Shown here in pieces: positions 26,859-36,136 of a DNA stretch of 48,270 nucleotides; position 1 is the stretch's first letter, and every line of letters starts with the position of its first letter. Made by a program: the position numbers and the translations under genes. The notes under the pieces are model-generated. The model was not told where the DNA came from and ran no database searches. It saw only the letters and a list, made by a program, of their open reading frames with translations. Origin of the DNA: an uncultured Verrucomicrobiales bacterium (GTDB lineage Bacteria > Verrucomicrobiota > Verrucomicrobiia > Verrucomicrobiales > Akkermansiaceae); the NCBI GenBank assembly GCA_938008215.1, contig CALLLS010000045.1, forward strand, positions 1 to 48,270, read 5' to 3'.

Positions 26859-26936
26859 TAGCGAGAAGGCTTGCGACTTTTTTTCTTGGCGACACTTATT
26901 TTTAATTAAATAGTGTGATCATAACCATTGATTAGT

Positions 26937-27584
26937 ATGAAAATAGCCATTACTGCGATTTTATTATCACTTACATCTGTTTCCTTTTCCGCCGGTTTCC
27001 TCTTAGATGCTTTAACTGGTACTATCCCGGGCACTACTACTACTTGGACTGCAACTCAAACACAAGGCTCTTCCTTAAATGTTAGTGGTAATAATTTCAA
27101 AATGTCCTCAGCCTCAGCTGGTGGTGGTGCTGCTGCTGAAATAATGACGATTACTTTTACAGGTGGTGCAGTTGATATAGATGTTCTCCCCAGCGGAACC
27201 GGTCAAGCTCAGTTTAGTAACAGCAATGCTAGCAATACTCTTACCGCAGATGCAGGAGCTGGAGGCTGGTCGTTTACGGCAGGAACCGTAGTGCCTCATC
27301 GTGAAGACGCTCTCCCTGCTATAGACCCTAATTGGTACACCATCACCGGCAACTCAGTAGTTACAGATCGCGTTAAAGGGGGCAATCGCGCTAATGGAGA
27401 CTTAAGTGGAAATGAAGACTGGGGTAGCTTCTCAAATACTGGAGTTACCACCTTCACGTGGGCTACCGAAGCTGCCAACAACGAATCCTTCCAGTTCTGC
27501 GTTACGCCTGTCCCAGAACCAACATCAGCAGGACTTCTTGGATTAGGCGGACTAGCACTCTTACTTCGTAGATCACGCAAATAA
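26937..27584 (+). CDS. PEP-CTERM sorting-domain protein
   Basis: 215 residues from ATG 26937; the TTG at 26928 is a less likely start. A signal peptide (MKIAITAILLSLTSVSFSA) is followed by a low-complexity region rich in Gly, Ser, Thr and Ala with almost no Lys, then two Trp-containing stretches. The C-terminus has the tripartite sorting signal: VPEPTSAG, a hydrophobic run LLGLGGLALLL and RRSRK. Proteins of this type are cut by exosortase and are usually linked to the surface or extracellular polysaccharide. Tandem Thr/Gly/Asn wording suggests a beta-sandwich passenger, but no known domain is visible. Cognate exosortase is not in this window; the CPBP protease next door is the only related partner. 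Confidence 0.9.
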   Translation: MKIAITAILLSLTSVSFSAGFLLDALTGTIPGTTTTWTATQTQGSSLNVSGNNFKMSSASAGGGAAAEIMTITFTGGAVDIDVLPSGTGQAQFSNSNASNTLTADAGAGGWSFTAGTVVPHREDALPAIDPNWYTITGNSVVTDRVKGGNRANGDLSGNEDWGSFSNTGVTTFTWATEAANNESFQFCVTPVPEPTSAGLLGLGGLALLLRRSRK

Positions 27585-30450: not shown

Positions 30451-31353
30451 TTATGGAGTAATCTCTAAGAGATCCTTATATTTAGAAGGAAGTTTGCGAG
30501 TTTGGTTTGTAAGATTGTTCCATAAGCGTGCTACTGATGCAGCTTCTAGTAATTGATAATATGCTGTGGAGTTTTTTTTAGCCTTATCTGTGCGTAGCTT
30601 TTTCTTAACATCCATCATTCCAGGTTTAGCTAAAATAGTATCGATAATTTTTTCACAGGCATTCTCTACTAAATCTACCTCTTTCAAATTCGACAGTGCT
30701 AGCATTTCGTTAAACTTCAACAACGACTCCTCTTCTTCACCTTTTGCTTGGAGGGCTAATGCATGACAATAAGATACTTGAGCCCATTGATAAGCTGGGA
30801 GCTTTTTCTTATCCCACTGTTTAGCGAGGAGGAGCATTTTATCCCAAGAACGAGATTTAACGGCATTCCAAAATGGATAAATAGAAAGCTGATTAATAAA
30901 ATTTTCATTTGTTAACGCTTCAGGTCTGAAGCTATCCAAAAGGCTATCTAAACTTTCTAAATCACCAGAGCGCCTTGCGCATTCCATCTCATAGAATGAA
31001 GCTAACACACTGTAATTGCCGGGAAGGATCTTAAGTCCTTGATATTCTTTTTTGCAGGTTTGGAACGCAGCTTTCGCCTCGTTGAATTTGCCCAGCTTGT
31101 AGCTCTCTAGACCTTTATGAAATGAAGAGGGGCGATAAAAAAAGATACTTTCAATATTATCTCTAGAAATCGCTGATTCTGTAGTGTCATTGACGTTATC
31201 AATATAGAATACTTTGGCTTTATCTGCCCTAACAAGGAGAGAACTCTTAGATGAGCCGTCTTTCATATTTATAACTACTTTAGCGGCATCTGCGTAAGAT
31301 AAGATAGTGGTAAACAATGCAAAAATTGCGCATGAAATTACTCTTGAATTCAT
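30451..31353 (-). CDS. Secreted TPR-like protein, last gene of Exb operon
   Basis: 300 residues. Signal peptide VISCAIFALFTTILSYADA, then a small beta region that includes KVVINMKDGSS and VNDTTESAISRDNIESIFFYRP, and from about residue 80 a helical repeat region (SYKLGKFNEAKAAFQTCKKEY is a clear TPR; SWDKMLLLAKQWDK follows). It ends in a short basic-rich tail. No catalytic motif. It starts 21 bp after the large TPR gene and is probably periplasmic, acting as an adaptor for the ExbBD-powered complex; that role is inferred from position. Confidence 0.8.
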   Translation of the reverse strand: MNSRVISCAIFALFTTILSYADAAKVVINMKDGSSKSSLLVRADKAKVFYIDNVNDTTESAISRDNIESIFFYRPSSFHKGLESYKLGKFNEAKAAFQTCKKEYQGLKILPGNYSVLASFYEMECARRSGDLESLDSLLDSFRPEALTNENFINQLSIYPFWNAVKSRSWDKMLLLAKQWDKKKLPAYQWAQVSYCHALALQAKGEEEESLLKFNEMLALSNLKEVDLVENACEKIIDTILAKPGMMDVKKKLRTDKAKKNSTAYYQLLEAASVARLWNNLTNQTRKLPSKYKDLLEITP

Positions 31354-31374
31354 AATTAAATTTTAAATGGGGGG

Positions 31375-34300
31375 TTATTTTTTCTCCTCAATCTGGGTTG
31401 CCATGTCTTTCACTTCACCAGATTCTCCGAATTTCTTCACCAAAGCTTCTGTTTCTTCCCATAACACTTTATCCTCAGGCACAAATTTATTGAGATTGAG
31501 CCTAGTAAGATCAACATATTTCCAACCTTGGTTATATGCCGCTTGCTTATCGCTCATAGTAATACTGCCGTCCTTACTTTCTTTCTGAGGAGTATTCCTT
31601 TTCCAAAGAAGTTCCATCATTCGTTTAGTCGAAGGCGCAGATACAGATATAACACCTAAATAAGACCCGTTTAATTTCACGTAAGCTTGTAGAGCGTCTG
31701 CGTCTTTCCCTTGTTTATCAAAACTGAGCGCATAGTTATAACTGGTTCTAGCTCGGTGCTTAGAAAACTTTTTATTATCAAGGTATTCTCTAGAGCGAGC
31801 ATTCACCTCCGCCCATTCTTCATTAGAAATATGAAGCTCTATTAAGCGAAAGAGCGCTCTTTCCTTATCCACATTCTTGGCTGAATCACTTGCATATATC
31901 CCGGTAAGGAGAGTCTGGGCCTGTTTTTTCTCTTCTGGTTTGTTAGAGCTTGCATAGACATCAGCGAGACCAAAGTCCGCTTTAAGCTTAAATTCTTTAT
32001 TCTTGCGCTTAATAATTTCCTGAAAGTAAGGAACAGATTCTCTTGGCGTAGCAGTCTTTTCTCTAATATAGTCTCCAATTTTCACTAAGCTATATGGTGT
32101 TAAGACAGCAGGGTTAAATTCGTTTTTAAGATCAGCAAATAACGCTTTAATACCAGCTTGTAAGGTATTCACTTTATTAGAATCTTTGTTCTTCTGAGTG
32201 ATCTTAATTTCACTCTCGTAAGCACCAATCAGAGCGATGCGTAACAGCGCCAAAGCTTCTTTATCTTCTGCGTCTATTCCATCAAAATTATAAAAATGCT
32301 CTTTAAGCTGATCTACATTATTTACCTCTAAAAATGAGTCTCTGTATGAATTAATTAAGTTTTCAAGCATGGGCTGACCAGGTAACTTAGCCACTCTAGC
32401 AATAACACTCTTCATCTTCTCTAAGCCTTCTGTAGCTCTACCTACTTTTTGCATTGCAGGGAAACCAGAAACCGCTACTTGCGCTTGAGATGGCGATTTC
32501 TCTGCGTAGCTCTTCCAATACTCATCATAATATTTTACGGCGTCTGAACTTCTGTCCGCACCTTTTCTTTCAGGGTCACCTAGAAGGAGAATTAGGCTGT
32601 AGAGAGATTCTTCACCTGCAGCTTTATTCCCTAACTCCTTTGATTTATCTAAGCCTTTCTTGTAGTATTCTTCAGCCTTTCCAAGGTCATCTAAAGAATA
32701 GTAGATACTGCCTTGGAGGTTATACGCGGCATCTATAATCGGGACACTAGGGAATTTTTCTAGTTCACCTAACTTTTTCATTGCAGAGTCTAGCTCGTCT
32801 AGGGAGAAATGAGAATTTGCTCTATCGAACAAAGCATATGGGTAAAGTGCTGAAGGAGTCTCCCTATTAGCTGCTAGATAGGCGTCCAACTTTTGACCTG
32901 CCGCTTCCCACTGCCCCATTCGAGTAAGGTTCGAGGCTTCTAAAAATACCGCGTCATCCTTAAATTTGCTTTCTGGATACTCACTTACATGCTGTGACAA
33001 ATACTTATCTGCATCCTGGTAGCGACCTAAATAGTAGTATGAACCACCTAACGCAAAAAGATTTGCGTCATGCGCTTCCGATGGCTTTGATTCTTCTAAT
33101 GATTCGAGCTGCGCAGTCGCAAGATCAAGCACTTCTTTATACTGCCCATTAAAATAAAGACCCGTAATCATTACTTTTTTAACTTCTTCTGCGTTTTCGC
33201 TTCCTGGGAAAGTCTTCACAAAGGTGTTTCCGTACTGTTCCGCCTTGCCTATTTTACCTATGTTTTGACACGTTCTAATTAAGCTAAATAAGTTTGATTC
33301 TCGATTAGGACTTTTAGGGTAACGCTCTTCTAACTGCTTATAAGCCGCATATGCCGCCCTGTTGTTTCCAGCATTTGACCAAAGGTATCCAGAGAGTGAT
33401 AAAGAAATGGCTTCGTTAGGCTCCTTGCTCCTCGCTTCATTCTCAAGTTTACTAATTAGTTCTTTTACTAATGGCGGAGAAATAATGATGAAACCATCAC
33501 GCAGTGGTCTAGTGATTTTTGAGCCTTCAAAAGACTTAGCGACAGCCTTTAGATCATTTATCGCTTCAAGTGTATCAGGCACTAAGCTCAATAATTCTAA
33601 AGGAACGATTTGCATATCAGCCTTAATTGCCTGAGACGCCCTAGAAAGGAGAATTTTAGAATATTGGCTGGCAACAAAAACGTCCGATTGCAAATCACTG
33701 CGATACTTTTTAAGAAAGTCTAAGATAATACCTTCATTCTTCTGCTTTATAGATTCTTCTAAGAGTGCATCAAAACCAGAGAAAATTGCTGCGGGAGGTG
33801 TGAGAAACTTATTCTTATTTTTAACAGCGCTTTCTAAGGATTTTATCCCCTCATCAATGTCACCTGTTTTAAACTGGCAAATACTGAGGTTAATTGAGAG
33901 CTTCCCTTTTGGATATTTATCATCTTGAGGGTTCGTTCGAGGATTTTTTTCTTTTAAGAATTGTTCAAATCTTATCTTTGCTTGCTCGTAATCACCCTGA
34001 GCGAAGAGAACATCACCCCACTTATATAAAGCATAATTTCTAAAGGTGTTCTTATTTTTTGCTTTCTCACTATTGGGATAATCATTGAAGCAATTCTGGA
34101 ATGATTTAGCGGCTTCAGGATAGAGCTTAAGTTTATCTTCACAATAGCCTTTATGATACCAGAACCAGCCGAATTTCGGCCCAAAGTCAATAATAGCATC
34201 CTCTGGCTTATTTACTCCAGTGAATAACGTAAGAGTATCTAGAGCTCCTTGCCAGTCACTAGCTTTCATTTTCTCTAAGCTTTGATTGTAAGCTTCCTTA

Positions 34301-34386
34301 ATAGTCGGAGCTTTGGCTGCATAGAGGCAGGATAGAAAAAAGGGAGGTAATAATATGAAGAGTAAGAGAGGACGCATAATATTCAA
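31375..34386 (-). CDS. Large secreted TPR protein of Exb operon
   Basis: 1003 residues. Signal peptide MRPLLLFILLPPFFLSCLYA (FLSC could be a lipobox), then tetratricopeptide repeats for most of its length, for example QSLEKMKASDWQGALDTL, YPEAAKSFQNCFNDYP, GDYEQAKIRFEQFLKE, YKEVLDLATAQLES, YQDADKYLSQHVSEYPES and LGKAEEYYKKGL. Repeats end about residue 950 and a charged tail follows. There is no enzymatic motif. It begins 3 bp after exbD-2, so it is part of the same operon. Likely a periplasmic scaffold working with the ExbB/ExbD motor; the size and repeat content are unusual for a motor partner. Confidence 0.88.
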   Translation of the reverse strand: MNIMRPLLLFILLPPFFLSCLYAAKAPTIKEAYNQSLEKMKASDWQGALDTLTLFTGVNKPEDAIIDFGPKFGWFWYHKGYCEDKLKLYPEAAKSFQNCFNDYPNSEKAKNKNTFRNYALYKWGDVLFAQGDYEQAKIRFEQFLKEKNPRTNPQDDKYPKGKLSINLSICQFKTGDIDEGIKSLESAVKNKNKFLTPPAAIFSGFDALLEESIKQKNEGIILDFLKKYRSDLQSDVFVASQYSKILLSRASQAIKADMQIVPLELLSLVPDTLEAINDLKAVAKSFEGSKITRPLRDGFIIISPPLVKELISKLENEARSKEPNEAISLSLSGYLWSNAGNNRAAYAAYKQLEERYPKSPNRESNLFSLIRTCQNIGKIGKAEQYGNTFVKTFPGSENAEEVKKVMITGLYFNGQYKEVLDLATAQLESLEESKPSEAHDANLFALGGSYYYLGRYQDADKYLSQHVSEYPESKFKDDAVFLEASNLTRMGQWEAAGQKLDAYLAANRETPSALYPYALFDRANSHFSLDELDSAMKKLGELEKFPSVPIIDAAYNLQGSIYYSLDDLGKAEEYYKKGLDKSKELGNKAAGEESLYSLILLLGDPERKGADRSSDAVKYYDEYWKSYAEKSPSQAQVAVSGFPAMQKVGRATEGLEKMKSVIARVAKLPGQPMLENLINSYRDSFLEVNNVDQLKEHFYNFDGIDAEDKEALALLRIALIGAYESEIKITQKNKDSNKVNTLQAGIKALFADLKNEFNPAVLTPYSLVKIGDYIREKTATPRESVPYFQEIIKRKNKEFKLKADFGLADVYASSNKPEEKKQAQTLLTGIYASDSAKNVDKERALFRLIELHISNEEWAEVNARSREYLDNKKFSKHRARTSYNYALSFDKQGKDADALQAYVKLNGSYLGVISVSAPSTKRMMELLWKRNTPQKESKDGSITMSDKQAAYNQGWKYVDLTRLNLNKFVPEDKVLWEETEALVKKFGESGEVKDMATQIEEKK

Positions 34387-34389
34387 TAA

Positions 34390-34851
34390 TTAGTCTATAA
34401 GGTCAGTGAAAGTAACACTCTTAATCTCGTTTTTCGCGAGGCAATTCAACACATCCAGAACTCTCTGTTGTTCTGCATCACCATCTATCGACATTTGAAC
34501 AACTGGAGTGCTCCCCGCAAGATCAGCAGAGGATTTATAAAGTTCAATTCTCTGAGAAAGTAGTGGGACTGAACGGTCACCAGTGTCTGTATCTAGGGTC
34601 TCTCGTGAATCTGCTGTGCCTAGATAGATGATACCTGACGGATCAATCTTAATGAGCATAGGATCAATCTCAGATGGGTCACCTCCCGTACACACAGATG
34701 GTAACTTCATATTAACATCCTGCTCAGACGCTTGAATCGTAGTAGTGACAATAAAGTAAATGAGGAGAAGGAAACAGACATCAATCAATGATGATATATC
34801 TAACCCCGGAGTGTCTTCTTCGTATATTGATCCCTTATTTTTTCTTGCCAT
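34390..34851 (-). CDS. ExbD/TolR-family protein (second copy)
   Basis: 153 residues. Short N-terminal tail, one membrane helix with the conserved Asp in DISSLIDVCFLLLIYFIV (about residue 24), then a periplasmic domain. The Asp is the proton-relay residue used by ExbBD/TolQR motors. The periplasmic part (PSGIIYLG, VPLLSQRIELY, VVQMSIDGDAEQQRVLDVLNCL) follows the TolR-like alpha/beta pattern. It follows the first exbD by 8 bp; two different ExbD paralogues in one operon suggest a hetero-oligomeric motor. Confidence 0.92.
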   Translation of the reverse strand: MARKNKGSIYEEDTPGLDISSLIDVCFLLLIYFIVTTTIQASEQDVNMKLPSVCTGGDPSEIDPMLIKIDPSGIIYLGTADSRETLDTDTGDRSVPLLSQRIELYKSSADLAGSTPVVQMSIDGDAEQQRVLDVLNCLAKNEIKSVTFTDLID

Positions 34852-34859
34852 AATAATTC

Positions 34860-35318
34860 TTAATAACCTGGGTTGACTTGATATGTAGCGAACTTCACAT
34901 CGTCTACACCCGCCGCTGCAGAGGAGCGTATCACCTTTCTACTGTGGCGGAATACCGCTTTTCTATCTCCACGTAAGTGCAATACAGGGGAATATCCAAA
35001 CCCGTCTGCTTTTTCTTTTTCTTTTAAGATGTAATCGGTGAGGTCTTCCTCTGAATCAAAATTTATAGAGCCGCTAGCATTTTTAAACCTTCCATCTTTA
35101 TAGATGTTAATAACAATGCGTCCGTTCTTATCCTCTTGCTTCCTAGAATTTTTGGCAATTGGCACCTCTACTTCGGCATCCATTTGAACAACTATCATAT
35201 TCGCATTAACGAGAAAGAAGATGAGAAGCAGAAATACCATATCAATCATGGGCGATAGATCCACTGCCTGATCATCATCAGCCGCTGAATTGAAGTTTTT
35301 TAACCGTCTAGATGCCAT
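34860..35318 (-). CDS. ExbD/TolR-family protein (first copy)
   Basis: 152 residues. The membrane helix VDLSPMIDMVFLLLIFFLV carries the conserved Asp (about residue 26); the N-terminal tail is basic and short. The periplasmic domain (VEVPIAKNS, GRIVINIYKDGRF, VLHLRGDRKAVFRHSRKVI) is the usual TolR-like fold. It differs clearly from the second ExbD in sequence, so the pair is not a recent tandem duplication. It starts 32 bp after exbB. Confidence 0.93.
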   Translation of the reverse strand: MASRRLKNFNSAADDDQAVDLSPMIDMVFLLLIFFLVNANMIVVQMDAEVEVPIAKNSRKQEDKNGRIVINIYKDGRFKNASGSINFDSEEDLTDYILKEKEKADGFGYSPVLHLRGDRKAVFRHSRKVIRSSAAAGVDDVKFATYQVNPGY

Positions 35319-35350
35319 AAAGCCTATTAAATATTAACGACTTCAAAAGA

Positions 35351-36136
35351 TCACTCCGCAGCTAACCCTTCAGGAATTTTAGCTAGATGCGCGTCTTGAT
35401 TGATAGTTTGTAAAGATGCATTAATGAGTTCCTCTGAGGTTTGATGACACTCTGCAACTAAACTATTCAGCTTATTCTTAAAGAAGTAATAAGAAACGAG
35501 AGCAGGAATGGCTATAACAAGCCCCCATAGTGTTGTTAAAAGGGCTGCTGAAATATCATTAGCCAGCATTCCAGGATCAGCTTGCCCGCTTCCAGAAAGC
35601 GTAGCAAATGCTCCAACCATACCAAGAACCGTTCCGAAAAGACCCACCATAGGAGCGGCTTGCGCTACTAAAGAAATATAGTTAATCCAAACCATATTTT
35701 TACGGTTTTCATTGATAGAGAAGTCTGCCACAGCATCTTCTACTTTTTCTCTACCAAGGTCTTCAGGGCTTGTGGCATCAACATTCGGCAAGGCGTAAGC
35801 CATCATGCGCCCAAGGTAACTTGGGTCAGCAGAAGATGCTTCTATAGCAGAGCGAACACGACAGTTCGTCATATGATCTAAAAGCTCATTCTTAAGATCT
35901 ACGGGGCAAAACTTAGCGCGGGAGATATTCATAAAATTAAACACCACTAATGCAAACAACGCCAATGACACCACAAGGATAAGGAACATAGTGGAACCAC
36001 CAGCTACCACATACTGTTGTAATGCGTTTGTCTTCTCCTGCCCAAAAGCTAAAGATACAGATGTGAGAGTTATTAGAGCGTAGATATTCCCCTTATAATG
36101 GGGACGGTTACTATTGAGAAAAATATCGTTCTTCAT
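35351..36136 (-). CDS. exbB: MotA/TolQ/ExbB proton channel family protein
   Basis: 261 residues. N-terminal hydrophobic segment (about 18-32), a membrane helix STMFLILVVSLALFALVVF (about 48-66), a cytoplasmic loop, and two further helices including LVAQAAPMVGLFGTVLGMVGAFATL (family signature around 155-180) and ALLTTLWGLVIAIPALVSYYFF. ExbB forms the proton channel and, with ExbD, energises outer-membrane or periplasmic partners. It is the first gene of exbB-exbD-exbD-TPR-TPR. No TonB or Pal gene is nearby, so the client is not the textbook TonB receptor system as far as this window shows. Confidence 0.94.
   Translation of the reverse strand: MKNDIFLNSNRPHYKGNIYALITLTSVSLAFGQEKTNALQQYVVAGGSTMFLILVVSLALFALVVFNFMNISRAKFCPVDLKNELLDHMTNCRVRSAIEASSADPSYLGRMMAYALPNVDATSPEDLGREKVEDAVADFSINENRKNMVWINYISLVAQAAPMVGLFGTVLGMVGAFATLSGSGQADPGMLANDISAALLTTLWGLVIAIPALVSYYFFKNKLNSLVAECHQTSEELINASLQTINQDAHLAKIPEGLAAE

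Follow-up and report, generated by a model that had tools for sequence, protein, structure and literature searches.

What does an ExbB-ExbD proton motor do in an operon where its partners are two secreted TPR proteins? The question is raised by a cluster in a 48,270-nucleotide stretch of DNA (hereafter the window) from an uncultured member of the Akkermansiaceae, whose genome is a 1.95 Mb draft in 73 contigs. Checking the window's open reading frames confirmed the five genes reported in the first-pass annotation, their coordinates and their intergenic gaps of 32, 8, 3 and 21 bp, and placed all of them on the minus strand. The genes span 30451-36136 and, in the order of transcription from 36136 to 30451, encode an ExbB/TolQ-family protein, two ExbDs and two further proteins, a TPR protein of 1003 aa and one of 300 aa:

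35351..36136, minus strand: ExbB/TolQ-like proton-channel subunit, 261 aa (PF01618, MotA_ExbB, 3e-25)
34860..35318, minus strand: ExbD1, 152 aa (PF02472, 9e-18; clade M1 of the ExbD tree, support 99/98)
34390..34851, minus strand: ExbD2, a distinct paralogue, 153 aa (PF02472, 4e-16; clade M2, support 100/98)
31375..34386, minus strand: large secreted TPR solenoid in the Mul1A position, 1003 aa (TPR families, Pfam)
30451..31353, minus strand: small secreted TPR-like protein of the Mul1B family, 300 aa (NCBIfam NF052542)

The motor of this locus looks functional, because both ExbDs retain the transmembrane aspartate (in SPMIDMVF in ExbD1 and SSLIDVCF in ExbD2) and ExbB retains the pore threonines (in GLFGTV and LLTT; T169, T201 and T202 are invariant in an alignment of MUL1-type ExbBs, the class described below). 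ExbB has a signal-peptide-like stretch at its N-terminus, and its closest solved structures are TolQ and ExbB. That the two ExbDs are distinct paralogues, as first annotated, was borne out by the ExbD tree, which assigns them to two separate ancient lineages.

Both TPR proteins also open with signal-peptide-like stretches. The larger one had been described as a 1003-aa TPR scaffold, and Pfam does find TPR repeats across the protein; its length is less firm, as 1003 aa assumes a TTG start and an ATG three codons later (codon 4) would give a 1000-aa protein with a better signal peptide. Its AlphaFold model (mean pLDDT 72.9) consists of helical hairpins throughout and is predicted with confidence from about residue 324 onwards, up to the C-terminus; the PDB entries that it matched, at TM-scores of ~0.2, were all generic TPR solenoids. 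One of these matches is a periplasmic scaffold from the flagellar motor of Campylobacter. Together with the large TPR protein's weak resemblance to PorW/SprE, it could point to a gliding-type or type IX-type machine for surface motility or secretion, with the TPR proteins as its periplasmic scaffold. We consider such a machine very unlikely: the PorW/SprE score was 33 bits against a cut-off of 250, the structural matches are generic, and no gliding or type IX genes were found at the locus. The 300-aa protein had only sub-threshold TPR matches in Pfam, and its model (pLDDT 61) was too poor for use.

The first-pass annotation proposed a proton motor apart from the TonB and Tol systems, and the scores agree with this. 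ExbB reached 58 bits against the ExbB equivalog cut-off of 206, and the Tol-family models gave 73 bits for tolQ (cut-off 221), 44 for tolR (127) and 63 for YbgF (90), so that ExbB, the ExbDs and the TPR proteins fall far below the curated TolQ, ExbB, TolR and CpoB cut-offs. Nonetheless, among general models ExbB matches TolQ best, the ExbDs TolR and the large TPR protein YbgF/CpoB, and the locus is conserved as a core across the family. Both points favour a reading in which the TPR proteins are an extended CpoB-like assembly and the motor serves to constrict the outer membrane or keep it intact. This Tol-Pal-like role in envelope upkeep appears improbable, given that every match lies under its curated cut-off, that TolA, TolB and Pal were all missing from the locus, and that the Akkermansia MUL phenotype is one of mucin use. 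Zorya defence was considered and rejected, since PADLOC's ZorA model matched ExbB only, at 13 bits (E 0.006).

The claim that TonB and Pal are absent holds at the locus, where neither is present, but not for TonB in the genome as a whole, since contig C15 bears an exbB-exbD-tonB operon (TonB, PF03544, 8e-18). The ExbB-ExbD pair of the locus might therefore energise that TonB, the only one in the genome, and through it the single TonB-dependent receptor, encoded on contig C34, with the TPR proteins as accessories. TonB and a TonB-dependent receptor do occur in nearly all genomes of the family, and published work has compared MUL1, to which we assign the locus below, with the Sus system. However, TonB has an exbB-exbD pair of its own in its own operon, neither TonB nor a receptor is linked to the ExbB-ExbD pair in the window, no TonB gene was seen beside a MUL1-type motor, the ExbB score is far under the equivalog cut-off, and the large TPR protein accompanies the motor wherever the motor is found. 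We regard a Ton energiser as unlikely.

Against NF052542 (mucin_mul1B_fam), the NCBI curated model of the ‘Mul1B family putative transporter subunit’, the 300-aa protein scored 200.4 bits (cut-off 75, E 4e-59), which places it in the Mul1B family; the small TPR protein of Akkermansia (A. muciniphila) scored 281 bits. Named contigs, A. muciniphila among them, share the window's gene order: L110-L112 carry exbB, exbD1, exbD2 and the large and small TPR genes, while L113 has the first four genes and stops at the large TPR gene. Because of this family membership and the synteny with A. muciniphila, we identify the locus as a MUL1 homologue; as far as sequence can tell, it is the MUL1 of Akkermansiaceae. 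The locus, first put forward as the window's best candidate for an undescribed system, thus belongs to a described one, and PVC clusters reported in 2025 (PMC12204202) contain the same components; the homology to MUL1 leaves the claim that it has no known client without support. 

In an Akkermansia genome, the MUL1 locus lies at ~667-674 kb, and interpolation from GH33/GH181 marker genes (Amuc_0625, 1547 and 1835) puts its tags at approximately Amuc_0545-0556. The MUL1 tags are presumably ~Amuc_0543-0547, with Amuc_0544 as Mul1A and Amuc_0543 as Mul1B. Published work terms Amuc_0546 a biopolymer transporter and reports higher levels of it on soy medium than with mucin, a pattern that fits a mucin-specific role poorly.

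The distribution of the locus also bears on mucin specificity. Among 97 genomes of the family, 75 had MUL1-type ExbB (E <=1e-100) and 91 had the large TPR protein (E <=1e-60); outside the genus Akkermansia, whose members in the genome set have large TPR proteins 86-98% identical to those of the named contigs (three Akkermansia, one Akkermansiaceae), the counts were 66 and 82 of 87. All 75 genomes with the motor kept the large TPR gene, and dispensable TPR genes, the pattern first proposed as speaking against a separate machine, were not seen. Surveying the five-gene order, as the first-pass annotation had suggested, showed that the same arrangement recurs across the family and the order. At 29 loci with 5-20 kb of context these five genes were the only conserved ones, the next neighbour occurring at 9 of the 29; an arrangement this consistent is far beyond chance, and the five genes form a self-contained unit.

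According to a 2026 paper, aquatic Akkermansiaceae lack MUL1 synteny, and MUL1 is hence mucin-specific. Our family-wide counts sit badly with that statement, in conflict with it rather than disproving it, since our genomes carry no habitat labels and MUL1 may be defined differently there. The presence of the locus across the family, beyond the gut genus, suggests that MUL1 is an engine of general use, not one specific to mucin, although near-universal presence could equally signal a housekeeping envelope function. One genome of the genus Akkermansia (G085, 99% complete) had neither MUL1-type ExbB nor the large TPR protein, possibly owing to an assembly gap. In one genus, seven genomes (G022, G434, G440, G447, G453, G465 and G472) have a second, diverged MUL1-type large TPR gene, and at L078:12353-15292, in the same genus, such a gene lies in tandem with the MUL1 locus.

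A sister module, found in other parts of the phylum and also in 15 of the 97 genomes of the family, has the order TPR (~950 aa)-TPR (~290 aa)-ExbB-ExbD-ExbD and is followed at most of the loci examined by a membrane-anchored protein with a helix motif such as GGGSLxxSxxxHxxxL. A 2025 paper (Mol Biol Evol, PMC12204202) describes PVC TPR-TolQ-TolR-TolR-vWA modules with vWA-fold transducers and reports their function as unknown; the sister module matches the cluster described there. Profiles of the large TPR proteins of MUL1 and the sister module aligned as homologous over 856 columns (hhalign, E 9e-68, 13% identity), in a comparison whose score TPR repeats inflate. The ExbD tree offers what we judge to be stronger evidence of homology: the first ExbDs of the two modules group together (M1 with Sa, 90/91), as do the second (M2 with Sb, 97/94), and the ExbD duplication would therefore be older than the split between the modules. 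On these comparisons, the MUL1 module is a rearranged relative of the phylum-wide sister module.

The two motors were never found together, as 75 family genomes had the MUL1-type motor, 15 the sister motor, none both and 7 neither (several of these being incomplete assemblies; Fisher 1e-12, ignoring relatedness). Within three genera the motor switches, with sister/MUL1 counts of 5/5, 2/7 and 8/2 (Fisher 2e-7 within these), and the MUL1-type large TPR gene persists in 12 of the 15 sister-motor genomes, sometimes as a short ORF. From this mutual exclusion and the replacement of one module by the other inside genera, we infer that both perform the same job. 

Other motors were seen along the way. 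The window's own genome has a second TPR-linked motor on contig C4 (L007:4584-10635), in which exbB and exbD precede genes for two secreted TPR proteins, one of 793 aa and the other of 796 aa, and an ExbD related to that of the C4 motor (100/97 in the tree) lies with an 816-aa TPR protein just downstream of a sister module (L150). On contig C20 (L010:4068-5926), exbB stands with genes for a membrane-anchored protein of 257 aa and for a degenerate ExbD that scores under the cut-off of Pfam. Near the locus, at window positions 26928-27584, there is a gene for a secreted protein with a PEP-CTERM anchor (PF07589).

If the modules share a job, the transducer is the part to account for. The window has the TPR, tolQ-like and two heterologous tolR-like genes that characterise the PVC module, but a motif scan of the window, of a kind that catches 7 of 11 sister loci, found no TM-anchored transducer with a His-bearing helix, and there was likewise none in the Akkermansiaceae MUL1 loci that we read. 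In 12 of the 15 sister genomes the best match was a His-bearing squalene-cyclase-like transducer, which adjoins the motor in the loci read. A related toroid transducer with a His in its helix (L060:4460-6034) also sits in a MUL1-type cluster, flanked by exbD2 and the large TPR gene, in a single genome from a different family of the order; this arrangement suggests that the transducer once belonged to the MUL1 operon. 

At their N-termini, the proteins beside the sister motor (L146, L148, L152, L153, L156, L157 and L163) all have a membrane helix in which a His is conserved, but their C-terminal domains vary, being of the squalene-cyclase-like toroid, PA14, SAM plus vWA, and SAM plus PA14 kinds; in its accessible part, the 2025 account (PMC12204202) covers the vWA kind. 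We considered an unlinked squalene-cyclase-like toroid as the missing transducer. Such toroids are common in the family, but in the N-termini read, from unlinked copies in MUL1-bearing genomes, Akkermansia included, the helix lacks the motor-type His, and the window's genome gave a single, weak toroid match (1e-39). Solitary toroids in MUL1-bearing genomes, some of them in tandem, start like MSLHAQLSPEAQARL, again with a membrane helix lacking the motor-type His (L178-L184, L186-L195).

Taken together, we think it probable that the locus is a MUL1 operon encoding a proton-driven periplasmic machine for glycan uptake. By analogy with ExbB-ExbD and TolQ-TolR structures, ExbB would form a pentameric proton channel with a dimer of one ExbD1 and one ExbD2 in its pore. 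Proton flow would drive the ExbD pair, whose periplasmic parts may engage the Mul1A solenoid and Mul1B, and this periplasmic assembly would pass force to a putative outer-membrane client and so draw large glycans into the periplasm; a protein resembling TonB or a transducer, encoded at another site, may contribute. The import step is modelled on the role of the MUL genes for mucin in Akkermansia: according to published work, the accumulation of mucin products within A. muciniphila requires MUL genes for pili and a periplasmic complex. Marine Akkermansiaceae have been reported to take up fucoidan. No glycan-degrading cluster, pilus or outer-membrane channel was linked to the locus, and in the window's organism uptake of glycans would follow from the homology. 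A broader and more tentative proposal is that MUL1 and the phylum-wide transducer module are two versions of one polysaccharide-import engine in the Verrucomicrobiota periplasm, the MUL1 operon having lost its transducer and transmitting force via the TPR solenoid or an unlinked protein.

The system itself is already named, and its interest here lies in its tie to a phylum-wide motor family and in the doubt cast on mucin specificity. That tie joins the mucin use locus of Akkermansia with the orphan TPR-TolQ-TolR-TolR clusters of the PVC bacteria, a link that we did not find in the literature searched. If correct, it would give those clusters a function, make MUL1 a core feature of the family, not an adaptation to the gut, and reveal a proton motor that seemingly works although its operon has no TonB-like transducer. 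Because MUL1 and the sister module exclude each other in distribution, they offer a clean complementation test.

Of the known systems, Tol-Pal (TolQRA-TolB-Pal-CpoB) resembles the locus in its motor family and TPR partner and differs in its TolA, TolB and Pal and in the curated cut-offs that the window's proteins miss. TonB-ExbB-ExbD shares the PF01618 and PF02472 motor pair, the pore threonines and the aspartate, whereas the window has two ExbDs, two TPR proteins and neither TonB nor a receptor in cis. The PVC TPR-TolQ-TolR-TolR module is closer, with a homologous large TPR protein, a related small one, ExbB and two matching ExbD lineages; there, the TPR genes come first and a His-helix transducer mostly follows, while in the window the motor comes first and no transducer is encoded in cis. 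A. muciniphila MUL1 differs in the gap between exbD2 and the large TPR gene (~1.1 kb in Akkermansia, 3 bp in the window), and the window's genome belongs to an Akkermansiaceae genus other than the gut genus Akkermansia. Identity between the two is 55% for ExbB, ~42% for ExbD1, ~44% for ExbD2, 27% for the large TPR protein and 26% for the small one, and all five genes are shared in the same order and on the same strand.
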